Below the pieces are notes generated by a model. It did not search any database. It was not told where the DNA came from and saw only the letters and a program-made list of their open reading frames with translations. Position numbers and translations under genes: made by a program. From Roseospira marina (GTDB lineage: Bacteria; Pseudomonadota; Alphaproteobacteria; Rhodospirillales; Rhodospirillaceae), in contig NZ_JACIGJ010000003.1 of NCBI RefSeq assembly GCF_014197855.1, forward strand, positions 248,001 to 312,000: a DNA stretch of 64,000 nt, written 5' to 3'. Shown here in pieces: positions 27,540 to 40,640 of this stretch. How positions within the stretch are numbered: the first letter of the stretch is position 1; each line of letters starts with the position of its first letter.

Positions 27540-28517
27540 CTACCCTGGCAGCGCGGGCACCGCCAACGCGCCGGGCAGGATCCCCGCCGTCATCGCGTAC
27601 AGCAGCACCGGAACCGTCAGCACCGACAGAACCGTGGTCGCGAGGATGCTGGCCGAGGCCCGCTCGGTCCACACATCGTACTGCTGCGCGATCACGAACA
27701 CGTTGGTCGCGGTGGGCAGGGAGGCCATCAGCACGGCCGTCGCCGTCCAGACCGGATCGAACGGCCCGACCAGGGACAGCCCCGCGAGCATCAGCGCGGG
27801 GTGGACCACCAGCTTCACCGGCACGATGTAGCCCAACGCGGCCGGCACCCGCGTGAGCGGACGCAGCACCAGCGTAACCCCCATCGCGAACAGGGCGCAG
27901 GGCGCCGCCGCCCCCGCCAGCGTATCGATCATGCGGCTCAACGGGCCGGGCGGCACCAGGCCCAGGAACGCCGTCGCCACCCCCAGCGCCGTCGCCACGA
28001 TGAACGGATGCGTCACGATCTGAATCACCACATCGCGCGCCACCCGCCACGGCGGGCGCGCCTGCTTCCCGGCCAGCGCCATCAGCGCCGGCGCGAGCGT
28101 GAAGTGCATAACGTTTTCAAAGCAGAAGATCAGCGCGACGGGCACAGCCGCGTCCGGACCGAACACCAGCAGGGCGAGGCCCGGCCCCATGTAGCCGATG
28201 TTGCCGTAGCCGGCCGCCAGAGCCTGCACCGTGGCCTCATCACCGCGTCCGCGCGTGGCCACCATCGCCACGCCGAACGTCAAAGCCAGGACCACGAACG
28301 TCATCCCGACATTCGTGAGGATGAAGTCCCAGCGTGTCAGCGTCTCCACCGGCGTCTTGGCCAGCAGGCTGAAGAACAGCGCCGGCAGCGCCAGATAGAC
28401 GACGAACGTGTTCAGCCACCCAAGCTCGTTCAGCGGCAGCCGCTTCAGCCGCCCCAGAACCGCACCCAGCGCGATGAGACCGAACAGCGGAAGAATAAGT
28501 CCGATAACGTTTAACAT
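27540..28517 (-). CDS. AEC (auxin efflux carrier) family transporter
   Basis: The 325-residue protein has about ten membrane segments arranged as two five-helix halves ([20 protein letters not shown] at the start, [19 protein letters not shown] at the end). Conserved blocks include [38 protein letters not shown] and [22 protein letters not shown] proteins export organic anions such as malonate or malate; the substrate here is unknown. It converges with tam, separated by 38 bases. Confidence 0.9.
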
Positions 28518-28954
28518 GAGCCCCGGTCATCGTGGCGGCCACCCGTTGAAACACGCACCTCTCACCATAAACGGCGAAAAAACGTTGGCGCAAAGGCGCG
28601 CCGACCACAACGGGATTCTCGGACCTTTGGCGCTCCGAGGGGACCGGTCCCCCTCCTACACACTTCGTCCAGGTGGGCGTTCCTTCACCATCGTGGTATT
28701 CTGTAACCGATGTGTCATGCTTTTTAGTTCGCGGGAGACGGCCCGGGTCCAAACCCGAGCCCAGAGGCAGAGCGGCGGGTCGCGAACACCGCGTGTGTGG
28801 CCGCACCTGGACCCGGAGGACACAGGCCTCGCCGCGAGGGGACAAGGCTCGGGTGGACATACACCGGTCGAAGAAGGAGCCGTGGGACACGTCCGGCGCG
28901 GCCGCCTCCTGGTATAGCGGGGGCGATCATCCGGCCGCGCGCCGTTCCTGTTCT
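28518..28954. other. 437-base leader/intergenic region before the hemerythrin gene
   Basis: No credible gene is found here. The stretch must contain promoters for the divergent AEC transporter and the hemerythrin fusion. A long-range inverted pair is visible: AACCCGAGCC near 28754 and GGCTCGGGTGG near 28847, about 90 bases apart, which would close a structured leader if transcribed. I could not match it to a known riboswitch, RNase P, SRP RNA or tmRNA. Confidence 0.4.
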
Positions 28955-29857
28955 ATGGCCTGGACCGAGACGCTGTCGGTCCACTCGCCCACGCTGGATT
29001 TTCACCATCAGATCCTGCTGGGCTGCCTCAACCGGATGATGGACCTCGGAGAGGACTGGCGCGGCTGCCTGCCGGCGGTGCGGCGCGAGTTGGCCGTTCT
29101 GGCGCGCTACGCCCAGATCCATTTCTTTGTCGAGGAACGGGTCTTGGCCCGCGCCAACGCGCCGGCGACCATCCTTCAGGCGCACCACGACAGCCACCAG
29201 CGCCTTCTCGCCTGGCTGATGGAGACAGACCGGGCGTTCAAGGCCGATCCCAGCACGGTTCCGTTCCCGTCGATGGTGCAGGCCCTGACGCAGTGGCTCA
29301 CACGCCATATCGGCAAGGAAGACCGGGCGCACGTGGGGGCCGTCATGCGGCGCCACCCGGAGATTGAGGCGGAGATCCGGCGGTGCCGGTACGCACCCAT
29401 CACACACCGATTGAACCTCGGTCGGCCGGACGCCCCGCCAGACCCCGCCGACCGGCGACCGCTCTTGGGCCGCCACGCCGCCATCGCGGAGGGCGACGTC
29501 GGGCGCGCCTATTTCCTGTCGCGCGCCCTACGCGACCAGGGCATGAGTGTCTCTCAGGCACGCGATCTTGCAACCGCCAGCGCCCTCATCGAGACCGAGA
29601 CCCCGGACCTGCTGTTCCTCGACTGGACGCTACCCGGCGCCACACCGCTGGCCCGGCGGGTGTACCGGACCACCGAAACGGCGGTGGTGGCGTGCCATTT
29701 CGGCAACCCATTGGACATATTGGATGCGTGCGAGGGCGCCGGTGTCGCCAACATCCTCGGCTATCCCTGCCGCGTCGCCGACATCGCAACGGCCGCCCAG
29801 ACCACGCTCGACGCCGCCGTACCGCTGCGCGCGCTCGTGCTCGAACGGGCGCCGTGA
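28955..29857 (+). CDS. Bacteriohemerythrin fused to a degenerate receiver domain
   Basis: Residues 1-130 form a bacteriohemerythrin with all seven expected iron ligands visible: His18, His56, Glu60, His77, His81, His118 and Asp123 (HFFVE, HHDSH, HIGKED). These domains bind O2 or NO at a di-iron site. Residues 165-300 resemble a response-regulator receiver (PDLLFLDWTLPG, with Asp223 at the phospho-site), but the conserved Thr/Ser and Lys positions fall in VVACHFG and ILGYPCR and are not conserved. This suggests an O2/NO-linked signalling protein that is not regulated by ordinary phosphorylation. The ATG at 28955 has no strong Shine-Dalgarno. Confidence 0.78.
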   Translation: MAWTETLSVHSPTLDFHHQILLGCLNRMMDLGEDWRGCLPAVRRELAVLARYAQIHFFVEERVLARANAPATILQAHHDSHQRLLAWLMETDRAFKADPSTVPFPSMVQALTQWLTRHIGKEDRAHVGAVMRRHPEIEAEIRRCRYAPITHRLNLGRPDAPPDPADRRPLLGRHAAIAEGDVGRAYFLSRALRDQGMSVSQARDLATASALIETETPDLLFLDWTLPGATPLARRVYRTTETAVVACHFGNPLDILDACEGAGVANILGYPCRVADIATAAQTTLDAAVPLRALVLERAP

Positions 29858-29893
29858 CAGCCGGCCGGGATCGGAACGCGGAACCGGCAGCGA

Positions 29894-30340
29894 TCACGCG
29901 ACGCCGTAGTTCTCGCCGTGAATGTAGGTGTCGCGATCGCGGAGATCCTGCGACAGCTGGCGATGAATCGCGCTGTGAAGGTCGCGCATCGAGACCATGG
30001 CCACGACGCGGTCATCCTCCACGATCGGCAGATGCCGGAACTTGTGCGCCTGCATCAGGCCCAGCGCCTCGAACGCGGTCGCATCCGGTGGCAGCGAGTA
30101 GGGATCGCGCGTCATGATCTCGTCCGCGCGAACGACGGCCGGGTTGCGGCCCTCTGCGACGATGCGGCCGGTGATATCGCGCTCGGTCACGATCCCGACC
30201 AGACGTTTGCCATCCATGACCAGCACCGCCGCGACCCGGTGGGTGGTCATCGCCACGGCCACGTCGCGTGCCGTCGCCTCTGGGGCGACGCTGATCAGCA
30301 CGCTCATGTTTACAATGTCCGGCACGAGCTTCCGAAGCAT
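29894..30340 (-). CDS. Two-CBS-domain protein
   Basis: The 148-residue protein is a pair of CBS domains: VAVAMTTHRVAAVLVMDGKR with VGIVTERDITGRIV, then ADEIMTRDPYSLPPDAT with FRHLPIVEDDRVVAMVSMRDL. Such Bateman modules bind adenosyl nucleotides and regulate partner proteins. No catalytic domain is attached. The ATG at 30340 follows GGGGAGGG. The 273-base spacer behind it (30341-30613) shows no gene. It converges with the hemerythrin gene, separated by 36 bases. Confidence 0.88.
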   Translation of the reverse strand: MLRKLVPDIVNMSVLISVAPEATARDVAVAMTTHRVAAVLVMDGKRLVGIVTERDITGRIVAEGRNPAVVRADEIMTRDPYSLPPDATAFEALGLMQAHKFRHLPIVEDDRVVAMVSMRDLHSAIHRQLSQDLRDRDTYIHGENYGVA

Positions 30341-30613
30341 ACGGAACCCTCCCCATCGCTGGAACGTGGCTGCGAACGCCCGTCCCGTTTGGTCGTGCGC
30401 GTGACCCGGATCGGGTGTATCCGGGCGCGGATCGTCGAAACGCCGGACCGCCCACACACCGTCCTTAACGCATCGGTTGTCCGGATGGTAAGTCCGTCTT
30501 GACGAGAGAGGAGTATAGACTGTGTTGCGGGGTCGGACAATGCGGCGTTGGCGGCCCACGCCCGCTCGGTTTCCGACCAATGGAAACCATCGGGTTTCGG
30601 TTCGGGCGGGCCC

Positions 30614-31573
30614 CTACCGCCGTCGCTCGGGGTCGGACACCACGTGGGTGCCGGGCGCCGGCAGGGCCCCATCGTTCTGTGCCGCCACGCGGCCGAGCTG
30701 CGCCTCGCGGTACAGGATATACAGGGCCGAGACGATGATGATCCCCGCCCCCACGAAGGTCCAGACGTCGGGCAGTTCCCCGAACGCCAGGATCCCGATC
30801 AGGGTCGCCCACACGATCTGGCTGTAGTCGAAGGGCGTGACCAGCGTGGCCTCGCCCTCCCGGTAGGCGCTGACCGCCAGGAACTGGCCCAGGCTGGCCG
30901 TCCCACCGATGGCGACCAGGACGACCCAGGTCAGCGGCTCCGGCCACTGCCAGACCCAGAGCGCGGGACCAAGCGTGATGACCACGGCCCCGGTCACGAA
31001 CCACATCAGAATGGTCAAGGGCCGCTCGGTCCGGGACAGCAGCTTGACCAGCGTCATGGCCGTCGCGACCAGGGCGGCCGACGCCAGCGCGGTCAGGGCG
31101 TTGAGGTCCAGCGCGGCCGTATCGGGCCGCATGACGATCAGCACACCGGCAAAGCCCACCGCGGTCGCCAGCCCGCGCCGCCACCGCACCACCTCGCCCA
31201 GGATCAGAATGGCCAGCAGAATCATGAACATCGGGCGGGCATAGGTGATCGACACCGCCGTCGCCAGATCCATGTGCGTGATGGCCTGAAACAGGCAGAA
31301 CATGGCCAGGATACCGATCGCGACCCGCAGGGCGTGGAGCCCCGGCCGTCGGGTGCAATAGATCGCCAGCCCCTCGCGGCGAATGAACGGAAGCAGGGCC
31401 ATAAGGCCGAACAGGCAGCGGAAAAAGACGATCTGGAAGGTGTGCAGCTCCATCCCGGCCATCTTGATCATGCCGTTCATGACCGAGAAGCAGAAGGCGC
31501 TGAGCAGCATGAACAGGCTCCCGCGGGCATTGCCGGACAATGCCCGCCACCAGGAGGCAACGGCAGGCGGCAC
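30614..31573 (-). CDS. EamA/DMT family transporter
   Basis: The 319-residue protein has ten membrane segments in two EamA repeats, starting ARGSLFMLLSAFCFSVMNG and ending VWTFVGAGIIIVSALYILY. Characteristic blocks are QIVFFRCLFGL, AITHMDLATAVSITYARP and YSQIVWATLIGILAFGELP. DMT proteins export or import metabolites; the substrate is unknown. The GTG at 31573 with AAAGGT upstream is chosen because it places the first membrane helix about 17 residues in; an in-frame ATG at 31696 would add 41 Arg-rich residues. Confidence 0.85.
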   Translation of the reverse strand: MPPAVASWWRALSGNARGSLFMLLSAFCFSVMNGMIKMAGMELHTFQIVFFRCLFGLMALLPFIRREGLAIYCTRRPGLHALRVAIGILAMFCLFQAITHMDLATAVSITYARPMFMILLAILILGEVVRWRRGLATAVGFAGVLIVMRPDTAALDLNALTALASAALVATAMTLVKLLSRTERPLTILMWFVTGAVVITLGPALWVWQWPEPLTWVVLVAIGGTASLGQFLAVSAYREGEATLVTPFDYSQIVWATLIGILAFGELPDVWTFVGAGIIIVSALYILYREAQLGRVAAQNDGALPAPGTHVVSDPERRR

Positions 31574-31748
31574 GGGTTGACCTTTCGCGAGGAACGCGCA
31601 GCGTATGCGGCGAACGTTGGTGTGCAGTCGATTAGAGTAACGGGTTCCTTCCTCGGCGCGGCCCGAAAGCGACGCGCTGCGCATCAGGGCTGCCATGCAG
31701 TGCGCGCATAATCAGATGTGCGGACAGCGCGCGCGTCCCGGTCCGTCG

Positions 31749-33683
31749 TCAGGCGGGCCGCGCCTGCGAGGACAGCGCGCCCGTACGGTCCCGATCCTCC
31801 GACGCCACGGTCCCCGCGATGTCCGGGCGGTCGCCGACCGCCAGGGCCATCCGGTTGCGTCCCGTCCGCTTCGCCTCATACAGGGCGTCGTCGGCCGCCT
31901 TCAAGGCGTCGTCGAAGGCCGCGTGCCGCGCCATGGCCGTCAGGCCAAGACTCGCCGTCACGGGCAGCGGACCGGTCGCGGTCGCGAAGGGTTCCCGGTT
32001 GATCGCAGCCAGGATCCGCCGCGCGGCGACCATCCCTTCCGTCACCGTCGCATGCGACACAATGACGGCGAACTCCTCGCCGCCGAGCCGGGCGACCGCG
32101 TCCGTCTCCCGCACCACATGGTGCAGCCGCCGGGCGACCTCGATCAGGACTTCGTCCCCGACGTCGTGGCCATGGGTGTCGTTGATCGCCTTGAAATGAT
32201 CGAGGTCCAGCATGATCAAGGCCGCGTCGCCGCTGTACCGGTTCAGGTCCGCCATGTAGTCGCTCGCCGACAGCATGAACGCCCGGCGGTTCTTGAGCCC
32301 GGTCAGGGGATCGTGGAGGGCAAGGTAGGCGGCCTCGTCGAGCAGCTTGCGGCTGCGCTCGGACTCCCGCACGAAGCGTTCGCGCACCTGATTGTAGAAC
32401 CAGGCCACATGCGCCGCGTCGGTTTCCTCGTCCACCTCCACCGGGGTCGAGAAATCCCCCATGGCGCCCTGCTGCGACAGCTGGTTCAGAAGATCGAGCA
32501 TGGCCGTGCCGGCGCCGTGCTCCGCCACGTTCAGCCCGATGCGTTCGTCCTCGGGCGAAACCCGGTAGGCGATCCAGACGCTCGTCACCGCCATGAACAC
32601 CCAGGCGACCACAAACGCGAACACCGGAATGACCACCGCGCCCAGCATCTGCACGGCCACCCACGCCAACCGTCCGCCCAAGACAGGCGGAATATGCTCC
32701 GGCGTGGCGAACAGCGGCAACATCACGGTACCGAGGACGCCAGCGAACAGGTGAACCGGAATGGCGCCGACCGGGTCGTCGATGCCAACGCGCTCCAGCA
32801 CCCCCAGCCCCCAGACGGCCACCAGGGCCCCCATGGCGCCGATCGCCATCGCGCCGAGGGGCTGCACCACCGAACACCCGGCGGTGATCGACACCAGTCC
32901 GCCCAGCATACCGGTGAGGATTTCGGTGGCTTTCGGTTTGCGCCGCCACAGCATGGCCCAGGCCAGGACGGCGACAATGCCGACCGCCGCGCCGACGCCC
33001 GTGTTGACCAGGATCAGCGGCACCTGATGCTCAAAGTCCTTGGCCGCGCCGCTGTTGAATCCGAACCAGCCGAACATCAGCAGAAAGGCGCCCAGGGCGG
33101 AGAGCGCGAGGTTGTCACCATCGATGGTGCCGCTCGGACGGGTGCCGTCAAACCGCCCGAGGCGCGGCCCAATGTGCAACACCGCCGCCAGCGCGATGGC
33201 GCCCCCCACGGCATGCACCACGGTGCTGCCCGCAAAGTCCAGGAAGCCCAGCTCCGCCAGCCATCCGCCCTGGCCCCAGGCCCAGTGGCCGCTGACGGGA
33301 TAGACCAGCACACTCATGCAGATGGCCAACAGAAGATAACCACCGAAACTGGTTCTCTCCGACACCGCGCCGGACACGATGGTGATCGCGGTGCCGCAGA
33401 ACATGGCCTGAAACAGCGCCACCAGCAGTTCGGAGGCGTTACCGGTCACCATGACCGAGGCCCCGTGACCAAGCAGTCCGAACCAACTGGCCCCGAACAT
33501 CAGACCGTTGCCGATGAGCATGAAGAACACGATCGTGGTGCCCAGGTCGGCGACGTTCTTGATCGCCACGTTCACAGAGTTCTTGCGGCGGACCATGCCC
33601 GCCTCGTAGCACGTGAACCCGGCCTGCATGAGCAGCACCAGGAACGTGGACAGCGCAAGCCAGATCATGTGTTGGTCGGACAT
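31749..33683 (-). CDS. Ammonium transporter (Amt) fused to a GGDEF diguanylate cyclase
   Basis: Residues 1-375 are an Amt/Mep channel with about 11 membrane helices. The twin pore histidines are His157 (TVVHAVGG) and His311 (PVHLFAGV), and the ammonium-site Asp149 (FLDFAGS) and WFGFNSGAA are present. Residues 380-450 form a cytosolic linker with coiled-coil character, and 452-625 a GGDEF domain: LDLDHFKAIND, active-site GGEEF at 534-538, and an inhibitory-site RETD at 525-528, five residues before it. The protein should couple ammonium sensing or transport to cyclic-di-GMP synthesis. A histidine-kinase-like gene lies 140 bases upstream in the same direction. No glnK is adjacent. Confidence 0.93.
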   Translation of the reverse strand: MSDQHMIWLALSTFLVLLMQAGFTCYEAGMVRRKNSVNVAIKNVADLGTTIVFFMLIGNGLMFGASWFGLLGHGASVMVTGNASELLVALFQAMFCGTAITIVSGAVSERTSFGGYLLLAICMSVLVYPVSGHWAWGQGGWLAELGFLDFAGSTVVHAVGGAIALAAVLHIGPRLGRFDGTRPSGTIDGDNLALSALGAFLLMFGWFGFNSGAAKDFEHQVPLILVNTGVGAAVGIVAVLAWAMLWRRKPKATEILTGMLGGLVSITAGCSVVQPLGAMAIGAMGALVAVWGLGVLERVGIDDPVGAIPVHLFAGVLGTVMLPLFATPEHIPPVLGGRLAWVAVQMLGAVVIPVFAFVVAWVFMAVTSVWIAYRVSPEDERIGLNVAEHGAGTAMLDLLNQLSQQGAMGDFSTPVEVDEETDAAHVAWFYNQVRERFVRESERSRKLLDEAAYLALHDPLTGLKNRRAFMLSASDYMADLNRYSGDAALIMLDLDHFKAINDTHGHDVGDEVLIEVARRLHHVVRETDAVARLGGEEFAVIVSHATVTEGMVAARRILAAINREPFATATGPLPVTASLGLTAMARHAAFDDALKAADDALYEAKRTGRNRMALAVGDRPDIAGTVASEDRDRTGALSSQARPA

Positions 33684-33823
33684 GGATAAACTGCCTTACA
33701 AAGTGGCAGCAGAAGGCGCGTGCCCAAAAAAGGGCGCCTCCCATCGCGGAATGTCAACCTAGACACATGGACTGTGACAATACGCATATTTGTATCGTTT
33801 ACAGAACACTCTAAAAACGGATA

Positions 33824-35002
33824 TCACCCCACCGTCGGACCGGGTCCAAGCCGGCTGGCCGCCAACCGTACGGTTGCCGTGGTGCCGCGCCCCGGCACGC
33901 TGTGCAGATCGAAGACACCGCCCAGCGCACCCACCAGCGTCTTCACGATCGTCAGCCCGACGCCGGCGTCATGCGATTCGCCGGCAGCGCTCCCCTCCCG
34001 GCTGGCGGACGGTATCAGCATGCGGCGGATACGGCCGGCCGCCGCGCCCCCGCCCCCGGTATCCCCGACCTGCAGCAGCAAGCGCTCCCGATCCAGCCGC
34101 AGGGACAGGTCGACCCGACCGCCCGCCGCGGTAAAGGCCAGGGCGTTGGCGATCAGATTGTGCAGAATGTGCCGGATGGCGGCGCCGTCCGCGCGCAGGG
34201 AACGCCCCGTCAGCGCCTCATCGACCTGAAACCCGAGCGTCACGCCGGCGGCCGTCGCGTCCGGCAGTGCGCGCTGGATCACGTCGGCAGCGAGGGCACG
34301 CAGGTCCACGCGCCCCCGTGCCCCCCGGTGACCGGACGCGGCGGGCCGCGCGATGTCGGGCACCACGGCGAACACTGCTTCCATATGGCGCCCCGCCGCG
34401 ACGATCCCGTTTGCGACGTCGCGCTGTCCGGGGGTGAGGCGCCCCGCCGCCCCCTGACCGAGCGCCTCGGCGGATTCGATGATGGTGTTCAGCGGTGTCC
34501 GGAGTTGCTGGCTCATCGCGCCCAGGAACCGGTCTTTTTCCGCGCTGGCATGCTCGGCGTGCGCCGCCGCGCGGCTCAGGGCCGCGACCTGCGCTTGATC
34601 CGCCGTGGTATCGACGAGCATGCCGGTCAGCCCGGTCACGATGCCGGTGACCTCGTCGCGCATGACGGTCTTGATGACGCGCGCGTGTCCGCGCGTGCCG
34701 TCCGCATACGAAACCGCCATGTCGCGCGTGCAGGGATCGGCCGAGCCTGTCTCGGCCTCCGCCAACAGAGCGCGGTCGTGGTCCTCATCGACCAGCGCGG
34801 TGACCCCGATGATTTCCGAGGCCATGCGCCCCACGACATCCATCCGGGACCGGCCGAGCACCCGCGCGGCATGGCGGACGTTGCTGGCCGTAAACCGCAG
34901 ATCCGTGTCCTTGATGTAGACGGGTACGCCGAGGGCGTCCAACAGGGTCAGGGCGTCCCACCGTGTCTGCACCGAAACCGCATCCATACCGTCCGCCGCC
35001 AT
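33824..35002 (-). CDS. PAS-containing histidine-kinase-like protein lacking the phospho-accepting His
   Basis: The 392-residue soluble protein has a PAS domain (about 20-135, VPVYIKDTDLRFTASN), a DHp-like helix pair and a HATPase domain. The H-box reads AMSQQLRTPLNTII: Gln165 stands where kinases have His (SHELRTP), confirmed from codons AGC-CAG-CAA. ATP-binding blocks are present: Asn282/Asn286 (HNLIANAL), DTGGGG (314-319) and AGVGLTIVK. It is probably a pseudokinase or ATP-binding sensor. The ATG at 35002 follows GGGGAGA. It lies directly upstream of the Amt-GGDEF gene and may be co-transcribed with it. Confidence 0.85.
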   Translation of the reverse strand: MAADGMDAVSVQTRWDALTLLDALGVPVYIKDTDLRFTASNVRHAARVLGRSRMDVVGRMASEIIGVTALVDEDHDRALLAEAETGSADPCTRDMAVSYADGTRGHARVIKTVMRDEVTGIVTGLTGMLVDTTADQAQVAALSRAAAHAEHASAEKDRFLGAMSQQLRTPLNTIIESAEALGQGAAGRLTPGQRDVANGIVAAGRHMEAVFAVVPDIARPAASGHRGARGRVDLRALAADVIQRALPDATAAGVTLGFQVDEALTGRSLRADGAAIRHILHNLIANALAFTAAGGRVDLSLRLDRERLLLQVGDTGGGGAAAGRIRRMLIPSASREGSAAGESHDAGVGLTIVKTLVGALGGVFDLHSVPGRGTTATVRLAASRLGPGPTVG

Positions 35003-35178
35003 GGCGTCTCCCCTTTCCGCCCGGCGCACACACGCACGACCAAGGCCAGCCAAACCAACGCCTTAGTCCGGGTGGCACCGCCATCCCGAACCGGCATTGT
35101 TCAGCATGCCTGAAGCAATACACACACGGCTAGAGGGGATTACGCTTTTGCCCGCGATTCGATCGCGCGACACCCGTT

Positions 35179-35199
35179 CCAAGGGATGTATCCCTTTGG
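35179..35199. terminator. Short hairpin downstream of sdhE
   Basis: CCAAGGGA-TGTA-TCCCTTTGG forms an eight-pair stem with one bulge. It sits about 72 bases past the sdhE stop, in the 268-base spacer before the kinase gene. No T-run follows, so termination is uncertain. The rest of the spacer shows only GGAGACGGAGGAGACAG-type purine repeats. Confidence 0.35.
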
Positions 35200-35270
35200 A
35201 GGAGACGGAGGAGACAGAGGACACGGCACGCCGGGACACCGCTCGAAGCGACCGGCGCGGACCGATCGGA

Positions 35271-35528
35271 TCAGACGGGCGGCATCAGCCGGTAGGCCTT
35301 CAGGCGCGCCATGATCGGCGTGTCATAGGCCGCCGGTACGGGCGTGCGGTCGAACAGCCAGTCCATGATGTTGGCGTCCGGTTCTTCAAGCAGCGTTTCG
35401 AACTGATCGAGTTCGGACGGGCTCAGATCGGCCAGGAACTCCTCGGCGAAACCACCCAGGATCAGGTCGGTCTCCTTCATGCCGCGCAGCTTGGCGCGGT
35501 AGAGAATACGTTTACGGCGATCGTCCAT
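35271..35528 (-). CDS. sdhE: FAD assembly factor SdhE
   Basis: The 85-residue protein starts MDDRRKRILYRAKLRGMKET and carries the RGxxE motif (RGMKE) essential for flavinylation of succinate dehydrogenase, followed by LILGGFAEEFLADLSPSEL and PDANIMDWLF. It helps attach FAD covalently to SdhA. It diverges from recG, a neighbourhood conserved in alphaproteobacteria. The start at 35528 follows the family. Confidence 0.93.
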   Translation of the reverse strand: MDDRRKRILYRAKLRGMKETDLILGGFAEEFLADLSPSELDQFETLLEEPDANIMDWLFDRTPVPAAYDTPIMARLKAYRLMPPV

Positions 35529-35628
35529 GGAGTGCTCCAGGCGGTAGGATGACGGCGCATCCCTGCGGCCCGTGTTATACGAGATCCAAACGCCCCTGTC
35601 AGCACACCGACCGGTTCCGCCCTCCGCC

Positions 35629-37725
35629 ATGCGCCCCGAACTGCTCTACCCCCTGTTCCAGCCCGTCGACTCCCTCAAGGGGGTCGGATCCCGCGTTGCC
35701 CCCCTGGTCCACAAATTGGCCGGGCCGAAGGTCGTGGATGTGCTCTGGCACCTGCCGACCGGCGTCATCGACCGGCGCTACCGCCCCACGGTGGCGGAGG
35801 CGATCCCGGGCAAGGTGGCCACCCTGGTCCTGACCGTCGACGAGCACCGGGCGCCCCCGCCGGGCAGCCGGGCGCCCTACCGCGTGGCGGCGTCCGACGC
35901 GACCGGCACGCTGACGCTGGTCTACTTCCGCGCGGGCCGAGACTACATGATGAAGCTGCTGCCCCCGGGAGAGCAGCGCGCCGTCAGCGGCCGGATCGAG
36001 GTGTTCAACGACCTGCCGCAGATGGCGCACCCGGACCATGTGGTGCCGCTGTCGGAGCTGGCCTCGATCCAGACCATCGAACCGGTCTATCCAATGACGC
36101 AGGGGCTGGCCCCGCGCGTGCTGCGCAAGATCGTGCTGGCGGCGCTGGCGGCCGGGCTCAAGGTCGCCCAGGGCGCGCCCGAGTGGCTCGACCCGACCCT
36201 GGTGGCGCGGCGTGGCTGGCCCACCTGGGGCGATGCCCTGCGCGCCGCCCATGAGCCCGCGGACGACGACGCGGTGTCGCCGCTGTCCCCGGCGCGACAA
36301 CGGCTGGCCTACGACGAGCTTCTGGCCACCCAGCTCGCCCTGTCGATCGCGCGCGCCAAGATGCGCGCCCGGCCGGGCCGCCCACGCGAGGGGGACGGCG
36401 CGATGCGCGCCGCCGCGCTGGCGGGCCTGCCGTTCGCCCTGACTCGCGCGCAGAGCACGGCGTTGGACGAGATCGCCGCCGACATGGCCCGCCCCTCGCG
36501 CATGCTGCGGCTGCTTCAGGGCGACGTGGGCAGCGGCAAGACCGTGGTGGCGTGGCTGGCCATGCTGATCGCGCTGGAAACCGGCGCCCAGGCGGCCCTG
36601 ATGGCGCCGACGGAGATCCTGGCCCGCCAGCACATGGAGACCCTCACCCCGCTCGCGGAGGCCATCGGCGTCCGAATCGCCCTGCTGACGGGACGCGACA
36701 AGGGCAAGCCGCGCGAGGAGACCCTGGCCGCGCTGGAGGCCGGCACCATCCGCGTCATCGTCGGCACCCATGCACTGTTTCAGGACGACGTGCGGTTCCG
36801 CGACCTGGGACTGGTGGTCATCGACGAGCAGCACCGCTTCGGCGTGGACCAGCGCCTTGGCCTGTCCAGCAAAGGGCCGGACGCGGACGTGTTGGTGATG
36901 ACGGCCACGCCGATCCCGCGCACCCTGACGCTGACGCACTACGGCGACATGGACATCTCGCGCCTGGACGAGAAGCCGCCGGGGCGCCAGCCGATCGAGA
37001 CCGTGGTGCTGCCGACCCAGCGCCTGCCCGACGTCATCGCGGCCATCCAGCGCGCCATCGCGGCCGGCAACAAGGTCTATTGGGTCTGCCCGCTGGTCGC
37101 CGAATCCGAAACCGACGACGTCGCGGCGGCCGAGGGCCGGTATGAGGACCTCCGCCAGATCCTGGGCGGGCGCGTCGGTCTGGTGCACGGGCGCATGAAG
37201 GCGGCCGAGAAAGACGCCGTCATGGAGCGCTTCGCCGGCGAGGGCGTCGACGTGCTGGTCGCCACCACGGTGATCGAGGTGGGGGTGAACGTGCCGGCCG
37301 CGACGGTGATGGTGATCGAGCACGCCGAGCGGTTCGGGCTGGCACAGTTGCACCAGTTGCGCGGCCGCATCGGGCGCGGCTCGGCGAAGTCCACCTGCCT
37401 GTTGCTCTATCAGGGGCCGCTGGGGGAGATCGCCCGGGACCGCCTGCAGGTGATCCGCACCACGGAAGACGGCTTCGTCATCGCCGAGGAGGACCTGCGC
37501 CTGCGTGGCGCCGGGGAAGTTCTGGGCACCCGCCAGAGCGGCCTGCCGAACTTCCGGCTTGCCGATCTGGCGGCGCACGCCGACCTGCTGGACACCGCGA
37601 GCGCCGACGCCCGCCTGATCCTGGAGCGCGACCCGGACCTGACGACCCCGCGCGGTCAGGCCCTGCGGGTGCTGCTGTACCTGTTCGAGCGGGACGCGGC
37701 GGTGCGGACGGTCCGGTCGGGTTGA
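35629..37725 (+). CDS. recG: ATP-dependent DNA helicase RecG
   Basis: The 698-residue protein has the N-terminal wedge domain (VDSLKGVGSRVAPLVHKLAG) and the two helicase domains with Walker A LLQGDVGSGKTVVAW, MAPTEILARQHM, the RecG-type DEQHRFGVDQRLGL box, TATPIPRTL, and VATTVIEVGVNVPAAT. It rewinds stalled replication forks and branch-migrates Holliday junctions. The ATG at 35629 fits the family; upstream in-frame ATG at 35572 would extend into the sdhE promoter. Confidence 0.97.
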   Translation: MRPELLYPLFQPVDSLKGVGSRVAPLVHKLAGPKVVDVLWHLPTGVIDRRYRPTVAEAIPGKVATLVLTVDEHRAPPPGSRAPYRVAASDATGTLTLVYFRAGRDYMMKLLPPGEQRAVSGRIEVFNDLPQMAHPDHVVPLSELASIQTIEPVYPMTQGLAPRVLRKIVLAALAAGLKVAQGAPEWLDPTLVARRGWPTWGDALRAAHEPADDDAVSPLSPARQRLAYDELLATQLALSIARAKMRARPGRPREGDGAMRAAALAGLPFALTRAQSTALDEIAADMARPSRMLRLLQGDVGSGKTVVAWLAMLIALETGAQAALMAPTEILARQHMETLTPLAEAIGVRIALLTGRDKGKPREETLAALEAGTIRVIVGTHALFQDDVRFRDLGLVVIDEQHRFGVDQRLGLSSKGPDADVLVMTATPIPRTLTLTHYGDMDISRLDEKPPGRQPIETVVLPTQRLPDVIAAIQRAIAAGNKVYWVCPLVAESETDDVAAAEGRYEDLRQILGGRVGLVHGRMKAAEKDAVMERFAGEGVDVLVATTVIEVGVNVPAATVMVIEHAERFGLAQLHQLRGRIGRGSAKSTCLLLYQGPLGEIARDRLQVIRTTEDGFVIAEEDLRLRGAGEVLGTRQSGLPNFRLADLAAHADLLDTASADARLILERDPDLTTPRGQALRVLLYLFERDAAVRTVRSG

Positions 37726-38196
37726 CCGGCGCGCCGCCCTACCGATCGCGCCCGATCCGGTGCCCACACCCGGCCCCCCTATCCTGCCACCACATCCGGC
37801 GACACCGGGAACCAACCCAGCACACCGGCGTAAGAAAACGTAGGTGTACGCTTTAATGTGCCGCTCACCAGAGCAACACCAACTTTTTAATAGGCCAAAA
37901 GGATGGGTCAATAAACGTACAAAAAAAGAACGTTTCGGCCTCAACTCACCAATGAGCCGATATCGACGCCCCTCCTCCATTCGGATGAGAGTGCTCTTGA
38001 ACCACGCCCAACACTAAAAATATTGAGCGGAACATTCGATTCACGTGTTGATCTCCGCCGATTGTGTTGAACGCATGCCTCGCGCGCTTCGGGTGCGATC
38101 GATGACTCGGCCAGGCGCCAGCGCGCCGACACGGTGACACCGCGCCGGAGACACCGAGCGTCGCTCTCGGACGTGCGAAGGGGACCGCCGCGCCTG
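37726..38196. other. 471-base gene-free stretch, AT-rich in the middle
   Basis: No credible open frame or known RNA is visible. From about 37830 to 38060 base composition falls well below the surrounding GC content (for example TTTTTAATAGG, AATAAACG, ACTAAAAATATTGAG), with several A-tracts. It lies between two converging genes, recG and the D-2-hydroxyacid dehydrogenase, so no promoter is required here for either. It could be a remnant of an acquired element or hold an unrecognised small RNA. Confidence 0.5.
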
Positions 38197-39654
38197 CTAC
38201 GGCAGGACTTTGCCGGGATTGAAGCGGCCGTCCGGGTCGATGGCCCGCTTGACCGCCCGCATCATGTCGAGTTCCACCGGGCTCTTCAGGCGGGCCAGCT
38301 CGCCCACCTTGATCCGGCCCACGCCATGCTCGGCGGCGATGGAGCCGTCCATCTCCGTCACGATGTCGTGCACGATCCGGTTCATGGCGTCCCACTGGTC
38401 GAGGTAGGCCGCTTTGTCCATCCCCTCGGGCTGGGTCAGGTTGTAGTGCACGTTGCCGTCGCCCAGATGCCCGAACGGACAGGGCCGCAGGCCCGGCATG
38501 GCTTCGGTCACGGCCTGATTGGCGCGGGCGATGAACGCCGGAATGTCCGAGACCGGCAGCGACACGTCGTGCTTGATGGACCCGCCCTCGAAGCCCTGCG
38601 CCTCGCTCATGGATTCACGCAGGCGCCACAGGGCGTCGCGCTGGTCCAGGCTTTCGGCCAGCACGGCATCGTCGACCAGTCCGCGCTCGAACGCCTCGCC
38701 GAGCAGCCCCTCCAGGTCATCGCGGACCCCGCCCGCGTCCCCGGCGCCGGGCCGCGCGCTCGACAGTTCGATCAGCACATACCAGGGCCAAGGCGCCTCC
38801 AGCGGATCGGCGCAGCCGGGCATGTGCCGACAGGTGATCTCGATCCCGAACCGGGGCATGAACTCGAACGCGGTCACGCCGTCGCCGGACCAGGCGCGGG
38901 CGTGGCGCAGCAGGGCGGTGACGTTGTCCAGGCTGGACAGGCCGCAGAACGCCGTGGCGGTCGCCACCGGCTTCGGGTACAGCCGCAGCGTCGCCGCCGT
39001 CACCAGGCCAAGCGTGCCCTCGGACCCGATGAACAGGTGGCGCAGTGCGTAACCCGCGTTGTCCTTGCCCAGGCGGCGCAGGCCGTTCCAGATACGCCCG
39101 TCCGGCAGCACGACCTCCAGCCCAAGCACCTGCTCGCGCGTGTTGCCGTAGCGAAGCACCCCCGTGCCCCCGGCGTTCGAGGCGATGTTGCCGCCGATCT
39201 GGCAGGAGCCCTCGGCGGCAAGGCTGACCGGGAACAGGCAGTCGGCCGCCTCGGCCTCCGCTTGCAGGTCCGCCAGGATCACACCCGCCTCGACGGTCAC
39301 GGTCAGGTTCACCGGATCCAGATGCCGGATCCGCCGCATGCGCGCGGTCGAGATCACCACCTCGCCGCCGTGCTCGAACGGGACATTGCCGCCCACCAGA
39401 CCCGTGTTGCCGCCCTGGGGCACCACCGGCACACCAGCGGCGTGACAGGCGGCGACGACGGCGGCGGTTTCCTCGGTCGTGGCGGGCTTGACGACGGCGC
39501 GGGCGCGACCGTGAAACAGGCCGCGCGGTTCCACCATGTGGCTGGCCATCGCCTCGGGCGTGGCCAGGACGGCCTTGTCGCCCACGATCTCGACGAAACG
39601 GGCGATCAGCGAATCGGTGTTGGCCTCGGCCGGCGCGGTGGTGGGAACGGTCAT
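38197..39654 (-). CDS. FAD-binding D-2-hydroxyacid dehydrogenase (D2HGDH/GlcD type)
   Basis: The 485-residue protein has an N-terminal FAD_binding_4 domain (VVPQGGNTGLVGGNVP, GGNIASNAGGTGVLRYGN, FIGSEGTLGLVTAATLRL) and a FAD-oxidase C domain with the metal histidines in CPFGHLGDGNVHYN and AAEHGVGRIK. Such enzymes oxidise D-2-hydroxyglutarate or D-lactate and pass electrons to ETF or a cytochrome. Its start overlaps the serB stop (ATGA), supporting D-2-hydroxyglutarate: the serine pathway enzyme SerA produces it as a by-product. That link is inference. Confidence 0.9.
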   Translation of the reverse strand: MTVPTTAPAEANTDSLIARFVEIVGDKAVLATPEAMASHMVEPRGLFHGRARAVVKPATTEETAAVVAACHAAGVPVVPQGGNTGLVGGNVPFEHGGEVVISTARMRRIRHLDPVNLTVTVEAGVILADLQAEAEAADCLFPVSLAAEGSCQIGGNIASNAGGTGVLRYGNTREQVLGLEVVLPDGRIWNGLRRLGKDNAGYALRHLFIGSEGTLGLVTAATLRLYPKPVATATAFCGLSSLDNVTALLRHARAWSGDGVTAFEFMPRFGIEITCRHMPGCADPLEAPWPWYVLIELSSARPGAGDAGGVRDDLEGLLGEAFERGLVDDAVLAESLDQRDALWRLRESMSEAQGFEGGSIKHDVSLPVSDIPAFIARANQAVTEAMPGLRPCPFGHLGDGNVHYNLTQPEGMDKAAYLDQWDAMNRIVHDIVTEMDGSIAAEHGVGRIKVGELARLKSPVELDMMRAVKRAIDPDGRFNPGKVLP

Positions 39655-40640
39655 GCGGACTCCCTGAACTGGTCGCGGGCAATGCCCTGGGCATACAACA
39701 GCGCGGTCAGGTCGCCATGACGCACGACGACCCGCGCCACTTCGGCCACGGCGGGCCGCGGCCGGAACGCCACGCCCAGCCCCGCCGCGTGCAACATCGG
39801 AATGTCGTTGGCGCCGTCGCCGACCGCGAGGGTCCGCCCCATCGGCAGCCCCAGCCTCCCGGCCTCGGCCATCAGCGTGGCCAGCTTGGTCTGGCGGTCG
39901 CGCACGGGCTCGATCACGCGGCCGGTCAGGTGGCCGTCCACGATTTCCATATCGTTCGACACATGGTCGTCGAAGCCGCAGAGGTCCAGAACCTTGCCGG
40001 TGAAATAGCGGAACCCGCCCGAGACCAGCAGACAGCGCGCCCCGTTCGCCTTCATGGTCGCGACCAAGGTTTGCGCGCCGGGCGTCAGGCGGGTGTGCGC
40101 CCAGGTCTCGGCCAACGCGGACTCAGGCAGCCCCGCCAGCATGCCGACGCGCTCCCGCAACGCCGCGGCAAAGTCCAACTCCCCATTCATGGCGCGCGCG
40201 GTAATGCTGGCGATGGCGTCGCGCAGGCCGGCGTGGGCGGCCAGATCGTCGAGCGTCTCCGACGTCACCATCGTGGAGTCCATGTCGGCGATCAGCAGCG
40301 CCTTGACGCGATCAGCATCCAGCCGCTGCGCGATGGTGTCCACGGGGCGGTCGCCCAGCGCAATACGGGCCGCGCCGTCCGCCTGTTCGGGCGCCAACCC
40401 GGCGAACGCGATGTCGCAGGCCTCGCCCTCCGCCAGCCAGCGGGCGCGGTCGCCCTCCGCCCCCAGCCGCTCCAGGGCGGCGCGCACGCTGTCCACAGCA
40501 GCCGGCGTCAAGGCGTCACTGCCGGCGGCGGCGACCAGCGTCAGGACACCGTCCAACCCCCGCGCACCGGGAGACGGATCGTCGTCACCCGGCATGACAA
40601 CGGAACGCGGCGCGGAGGCGGACGCGGACGGGGTATCCAT
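39651..40640 (-). CDS. serB: Phosphoserine phosphatase
   Basis: The 329-residue HAD enzyme has LLIADMDSTMVTSETLDDLA (catalytic DxDxT), RCLLVSGGFRYFTGKV, and VGDGANDIPMLHAAGLGVAF. The first 120 residues resemble an ACT-like regulatory domain after a Ser/Ala-rich start. It hydrolyses phosphoserine to serine in the final step of serine synthesis. The ATG at 40640 is the first in frame that does not intrude on the btaB end. It is translationally coupled to the dehydrogenase downstream. Confidence 0.95.
   Translation of the reverse strand: MDTPSASASAPRSVVMPGDDDPSPGARGLDGVLTLVAAAGSDALTPAAVDSVRAALERLGAEGDRARWLAEGEACDIAFAGLAPEQADGAARIALGDRPVDTIAQRLDADRVKALLIADMDSTMVTSETLDDLAAHAGLRDAIASITARAMNGELDFAAALRERVGMLAGLPESALAETWAHTRLTPGAQTLVATMKANGARCLLVSGGFRYFTGKVLDLCGFDDHVSNDMEIVDGHLTGRVIEPVRDRQTKLATLMAEAGRLGLPMGRTLAVGDGANDIPMLHAAGLGVAFRPRPAVAEVARVVVRHGDLTALLYAQGIARDQFRESA

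Follow-up and report, generated by a model that had tools for sequence, protein, structure and literature searches.

The protein encoded at positions 31749–33683 of the window, by which we mean the whole 64,000-nucleotide stretch of Roseospira marina DNA analysed here, is probably a transmembrane ammonium receptor of the type represented by Sd-Amt1 and Ks-Amt5, with the synthesis of cyclic-di-GMP (c-di-GMP) as its output. The fusion belongs to a receptor type whose structure has already been solved, in Sd-Amt1, and is no new kind of system; the one genus-specific feature worth a specialist's attention is a change in the selectivity filter of its ammonium transporter (Amt) domain. Most diguanylate cyclases have, to our knowledge, no known input, and if the reading proposed here is true, an ammonium-reading enzyme that makes c-di-GMP ties nitrogen supply directly to the decision between a motile and an attached life.

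The gene is a single reading frame of 644 codons with an ATG start, located on the minus strand, the strand having been left unspecified in the preliminary description of this DNA. Searches against Pfam place an Amt domain at residues 8–391 (PF00909, E 4.5e-104; 32511..33662, minus) and a GGDEF (diguanylate cyclase) domain at residues 455–611 (PF00990, E 1.6e-44; 31851..32321, minus), so that the domain search proposed in that description found both families and bears out its claim of an Amt and a GGDEF domain within one 644-residue protein. The N-terminal half also reaches the NCBIfam model TIGR00836 (amt) with 361.1 bits against a cut-off of 343.3, and the two domains are joined by a linker at residues 392–450 (32334..32510, minus). 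An overlapping 664-residue open reading frame on the plus strand (31695–33689) was taken to be an antisense frame and no gene of its own. No sigma-70-like promoters were found between 31400 and 34200, the same interval holds two terminator-like sites against 1.8 expected, and 28000–40000 has no Rfam match at gathering scores.

The receptor is a real single gene, as seen from its full-length orthologs in three further genomes of the genus and from the purifying selection on both domains and the linker. A match running through both domains was found in eight of the 60 genomes searched, namely the own genome, three of the genus (G003, G004 and G005, with orthologs 69–79% identical to the receptor), three of the family (G008, G012, G017) and one of the order (G055); the protein of locus L023 is likewise 69% identical. 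The gene is missing from G001 and G002, the remaining two of the six genus genomes. Separately, G005 carries two copies of an Amt–GGDEF receptor on different contigs (L005 and L183). A frameshift or assembly error joining two genes, which had been named earlier as something that could undo the fusion, can be discounted as next to impossible: nothing was found in its favour, and the same single-frame fusion is present in G003, G004 and G005, in four more genomes of the family and order and in a protein of the PDB. Compared with the ortholog L004, the Amt part has dN 0.119 and dS 0.836, the linker is constrained to an equal degree (dN 0.112, dS 1.04) and the GGDEF part has dN 0.183 and dS 0.919, and each part likewise shows a dN far lower than dS against L005 and L006. 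Identity is higher in the Amt than in the GGDEF part in each of these comparisons (82 versus 73% for L004, 73 versus 68% for L005 and 74 versus 60% for L006), and the tail after residue 614 is poorly conserved, with 27% identity over 11 aligned residues in L004, 19% over 16 in L005 and a single aligned residue in L006.

Amt–signalling fusions had been called rare, which is too broad. An Amt joined to a signalling domain is present in at least 25 genomes of a class draw of 337 and in at least 20 of a phylum draw of 398 (own genome included in both), and is not very rare; it is the direct Amt–GGDEF form that looks sparse. Full-length matches at E up to 1e-80 were found in seven of 73 genomes of the family, and in the class and phylum draws, where up to three candidates per genome were scored and matches reached only to E 1e-50, the own genome gave the sole match through both domains among the matches listed.

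Searching the PDB by sequence returned two distinct full-length homologs with both domains (E about 1e-121), and a fold search named 8qpf, Ammonium Transporter Amt1 from Shewanella denitrificans, together with 8qj3 and 8qj4, the receptor Sd-Amt1 in its OFF-state and ON-state. These structures were released in June 2024, Ks-Amt5 (6eu6) was the next match, and the fold-search matches span the Amt and GGDEF parts with the linker barely covered. We presume the Sd-Amt1 structures to be those of the protein of Pflueger et al. (Sci Adv, 2024), which is said to be an Amt joined to a diguanylate cyclase via a HAMP domain, and reportedly has a site for two ammonium ions and a HAMP pairing that brings the cyclase domains together. 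The window receptor matches Sd-Amt1 over residues 7–618 (E 2.8e-121), with 42–43% identity in the Amt domain, and shares with it the order of Amt, linker and a GGDEF domain bearing GGEEF (the RxxD motif of Sd-Amt1 being RPAD), as well as the putative ammonium-site residues Q, E, N, D, T and S described below. The two differ in the filter, which reads FNGGS in Sd-Amt1 and FNSGA here, in the residue at the position of Ks-Amt5 T51, which is Phe there and Leu here, and in their place in the Amt tree.

Ks-Amt5, from Candidatus Kuenenia stuttgartiensis, is likewise an Amt repurposed as a sensor, but its output is a histidine kinase; in the available part of its description (PMC5764959) it has no HAMP domain and, like the window receptor, no adjacent GlnK gene. 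AmtE of Azoarcus olearius BH72 also combines Amt with GGDEF and is regarded by its authors as a likely transceptor, although in the part of that paper at hand it is described with an EAL domain as well (PMC8467165). Within the portions of text that the literature search returned, none dealt with a direct Amt–GGDEF protein, AmtE with its EAL domain being the nearest.

The strongest likeness to the sensor Amts lies in a predicted second ammonium site. According to the accessible portion of PMC5764959, Ks-Amt5 holds two ammonium ions in a buried site made up of Q24, E31, N47, D50, T51, T109 and T112. By alignment, the helix 1 part of this site corresponds to Q20 and E27 of the receptor (Ks-Amt5 Q24 and E31; 33603..33626, minus), the helix 2 part to N43 and D46 (N47 and D50; 33546..33557, minus) and the helix 4 part to T101 and S104 (T109 and T112; 33372..33383, minus), while the third ligand of helix 2, T51, corresponds to L47. 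The site predicted in this way from sequence alone therefore has five of the seven ligands identical, with S104 for T112 and L47 for T51.

How far this site is a property of receptors was assessed over 99 aligned Amt domains, 57 of them fused (with a C-terminal extension of at least 150 residues) and 42 unfused, a non-random sample made up of Ks-Amt5, Sd-Amt1, AfAmt1, E. coli AmtB and those proteins of the fetched loci that match the receptor; L001 and L003, which are the query itself, and L023, taken to be the same protein as L006, were left out. The Q/D/T core (positions 20, 46 and 101) occurs together in 55 of the 57 fused Amts versus nine of the 42 unfused, the fused exceptions being L144, which has Q, N and A, and L153, whose N-terminus is cut short. 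The same positions read T, T and G in E. coli AmtB, V, S and A in AfAmt1 and A, I and S in the other Amt of the own genome. E27 and N43 do not discriminate, being found also in 31 and 28 of the 42 unfused rows, respectively. As a proof of receptor function the Q/D/T triad was rejected, since nine unfused Amts have it (L025, L027, L126, L127, L146, L148, L150, L151 and L152, eight of the nine with all six site residues), and the site thus marks a larger set than the receptors. An elongated loop 5, noted for Ks-Amt5, was also set aside as non-diagnostic: the loop has 20 residues in the AmtB of the own genome too by the same count and 18 in 33 of the 57 fused rows.

Five of the unfused proteins with the receptor-type site (L146, L148, L150, L151 and L152) lack an output domain; their terminal tail contains GLD and GYPEF. 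An open reading frame of about 220 residues adjoins each of their genes (for example L146:2703–3359, plus strand); the five neighbours look homologous when their initial residues are compared by eye, and gave no Pfam match in any of the five and no NCBIfam match in the two tried.

In the conduction pathway, five of six filter and pore residues of Ks-Amt5 are kept, namely W136, F95, F209, H157 and H311 (Ks-Amt5 W144, F103, F223, H171 and H326), and the twin histidines and Asp149, correctly placed in the preliminary description, align to H168, H318 and D160 of E. coli AmtB in mature numbering. The sixth residue, the outer serine of the filter (AmtB S219, Ks-Amt5 S227), is Ala213, so that "complete Amt channel" was too strong a wording although the twin histidines and Asp149 are indeed there. 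Nor does an intact channel follow from the twin histidines, because Ks-Amt5, in the part of PMC5764959 available, keeps the known pore residues and does not translocate ammonium efficiently; retention of these residues is equally no criterion of signalling in itself.

These residues bear on the possibility that the protein is a true transceptor, in which ammonium still passes through the Amt half and its transport is what drives the cyclase. Such a mechanism would fit the retention of W136, D149, the twin histidines and the two gate phenylalanines, but we consider it unlikely in view of the behaviour of Ks-Amt5 with the same residues, the putative second ammonium site, the replacement of the filter serine by Ala and the presence in the genome of a separate AmtB paired with P-II. 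A weaker point in the same direction is that F23 and Y26 match F27 and Y30, bulky residues that help to close the Ks-Amt5 pore; F23, however, is also present in the AmtB of the own genome, and F34, the last of the three bulky residues, corresponds to M30 here. Where transport or occupancy had both been offered as the signal, occupancy appears the likelier, since Ks-Amt5 retains its histidines without efficient transport, a Ks-Amt5-type second site is predicted and the filter serine is lost. The Amt half is accordingly read as more likely a receptor than a channel.

The altered filter triplet, S211-G212-A213 (33045..33053, minus), differs from the G211 and S213 of 8qpf, Ks-Amt5 and most fused Amts. 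Position 213 is Ser in 52 of the 57 fused rows, and four of the five exceptions come from the own genus (the query and L004 with Ala, L005 and L006 with Gly, the fifth being L147, also with Gly), leaving Ser in 52 of the 53 fused Amts outside it. At position 211 all four genus rows have Ser, against Gly in 51 of the 53 other fused rows, and each genus copy examined reads FNSGA or FNSGG, L183 and L023 included. Gly at the filter-serine position was seen in three of the 42 unfused rows. From these alignments the change looks like a derived trait of the genus, arising on its long stem branch (length 1.19).

Loss of constraint would be one way to explain such changes, the Amt domain then being a decayed sensor that serves as a relic anchor for a cyclase that is constitutive or otherwise controlled. 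The replacement of S213 by Ala or Gly and of G211 by Ser in the genus copies examined and the length of the stem branch would suit this idea, which is rendered very improbable by the purifying selection on the Amt part (dN 0.119 against dS 0.836 in comparison with L004), by the retention of the site, gate and histidine residues and by the better conservation of the Amt than of the GGDEF part relative to L004, L005 and L006. A more constructive, still tentative suggestion is that the genus has a receptor with a remade entrance, its outer gate retuned or differently selective, sealed to transport and still sensing, perhaps for higher ammonium or for another amine; this comes to mind because every genus copy examined has Ala or Gly in place of the filter serine, with the core of the buried site left untouched. 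With Leu as the seventh ligand and the filter serine lost, recruitment of ammonium could be weaker. A comparison of this filter with that of Sd-Amt1 could separate the needs of ammonium recruitment from those of signalling.

The fused Amts group together in the tree (58 rows at 91/63, with the unfused L025 among them), and the neighbours of this group are five unfused proteins that bear the site and come from other classes of the phylum. The first tree had suggested that the direct Amt–GGDEF fusion arose several times, an idea that found no support, since trees in which the fusions are held together were not rejected. When the eight own-order direct fusions were held together, p was 0.599 and the held tree was better than the free one; adding Sd-Amt1 (nine proteins) gave p 0.354, and holding all 57 fused rows together gave p 0.215. 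A single origin of the direct fusions, Sd-Amt1 included, or of all fused Amts is thus not rejected.

Residues 383–454 can be aligned across the fused Amts whatever the output, be it GGDEF, PAS with GGDEF and EAL, histidine kinase or chemoreceptor, these architectures having been assigned by Pfam for ten proteins and by template searches for the rest, with several loci ending before the protein does. In L136, L137, L141 and L142, which are labelled GGDEF, the GGDEF domain lies more than 400 residues after the Amt, with PAS domains between them in L136. The linker consensus, GDFS..V.VEP.TE.G.IA..YN.V, is similar to the C-terminal half of a HAMP domain. When a profile built from 55 linkers was compared with one of 20 HAMP domains from the own genome, hhalign gave 93.8%. 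A scripted rerun of this comparison gave 90.9%, whereas shuffling the columns 200 times gave at most 10.3% and reversing the profile gave 0.7%; taken by themselves, the eight direct Amt–GGDEF linkers scored 7.3%. PF00672 was matched by 26 of the 55 linkers at E up to 10 (best 4.8e-6), and any other family by at most three. In the PDB, the linker profile found the two Sd-Amt1 sequences and then 9trk, a histidine kinase–Gcn4 chimera (E 8.8e-5), a match taken to cover its HAMP part; further matches were to coiled coils and were dismissed as meaningless here. The linker of the window receptor itself has no Pfam match and is absent from the 35 HAMP matches of the genome. By these profile comparisons the linker is HAMP-like through family membership, the window copy appearing to have diverged. 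A one-chain AlphaFold2 model (mean pLDDT 86.4, pTM 0.61) predicts a helix at 392–404, a connector and a helix at 422–456 that runs into the cyclase, the linker being among its least sure parts (ten-residue means of 56 to 75 over 391–430). The survey reveals one Amt–linker sensor module serving GGDEF, PAS–GGDEF–EAL, histidine kinase and chemoreceptor outputs. The Amts joined to chemoreceptor (MCP) signalling domains, L013 and L147 by Pfam and L125 by a template match, are possible ammonium chemoreceptors.

The cyclase half aligns to PleD over its whole length and keeps DLDHFK (493–498), NDTHGH (501–506) and AKRTGRN (604–610), segments that we take to hold the metal and GTP residues of PleD. The active-site motif GGEEF lies at residues 534–538 (32070..32084, minus) and the inhibitory-site motif RETD at 525–528 (32100..32111, minus), both as first described, and the domain is apparently an active diguanylate cyclase with its inhibitory-site motif retained. 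Signalling by c-di-GMP is present in the genome, as seen from its 30 GGDEF and three PilZ matches. A point that sits uneasily with the receptor reading is that a working cyclase needs a pair of GGDEF domains whereas Amt proteins are trimers.

In the receptor mechanism that we favour, periplasmic ammonium would enter the outer half of the Amt fold and be held at the buried two-cation site formed by Q20, E27, N43, D46, T101 and S104. Its binding would shift the cytoplasmic face of the Amt trimer, the HAMP-like linker would pass this movement on so that neighbouring GGDEF domains pair, and the paired domains would convert GTP to c-di-GMP, which on rising would bind RETD and limit the enzyme. The receptor itself would take up little or no net ammonium, uptake being the task of the separate P-II-paired AmtB. 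We infer by analogy that ammonium is the ligand and activates the enzyme, that the Amt part forms a trimer and does not transport, and that the linker drives the pairing. The sign is unreadable from the sequence, and ammonium may instead shut the cyclase off, c-di-GMP then going up on nitrogen starvation; we judge this improbable, to about the same degree as a conducting transceptor, because PDB titles name ON and OFF states of Sd-Amt1, of which the ON state is presumably the ammonium-bound one. The opposite sign would agree with the 36-fold enhanced expression of Azoarcus amtE, whose product combines Amt with GGDEF/EAL, in work comparing nitrogen-deficient with replete growth, as given in the available part of PMC8467165.

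The own genome encodes two Amts, the other being an AmtB at C1:533581 (L002) with a P-II gene directly upstream (C1:533080–533397). Like E. coli AmtB, it shares with the receptor the fold, the twin histidines, the gate phenylalanines and the W and D residues, and differs in having no output domain and no Q/D/T of the second site. None of the four P-II matches of the genome lies on contig C3, which carries the receptor, so that no P-II/GlnK gene stands beside it; GlnK pairing, absence of an output domain and the filter serine, which mark an assimilatory AmtB, are all missing from the receptor. Of its neighbours, an upstream kinase-like gene and a downstream EamA gene recur around L004 and were not found at the other seven of eight loci (L005–L010 and L023), for which 5 kb on each side was available at L023 and at most 1.5 kb at the rest. 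The kinase-like gene (33824–35053, minus) lies 140 bases upstream of the receptor gene on the same strand and encodes a HisKA/HATPase protein that reads MSQQLRTPLN, as against MSHQLRTPLN in its L004 homolog, the only one found, so that the phospho-accepting His is replaced by Gln; the protein may be a dead kinase or may regulate the receptor. Further away, the plus-strand gene at 28673–29857 encodes a hemerythrin domain that passes the Pfam cut-off and, after it, a weak match to the receiver domain that does not pass its own.
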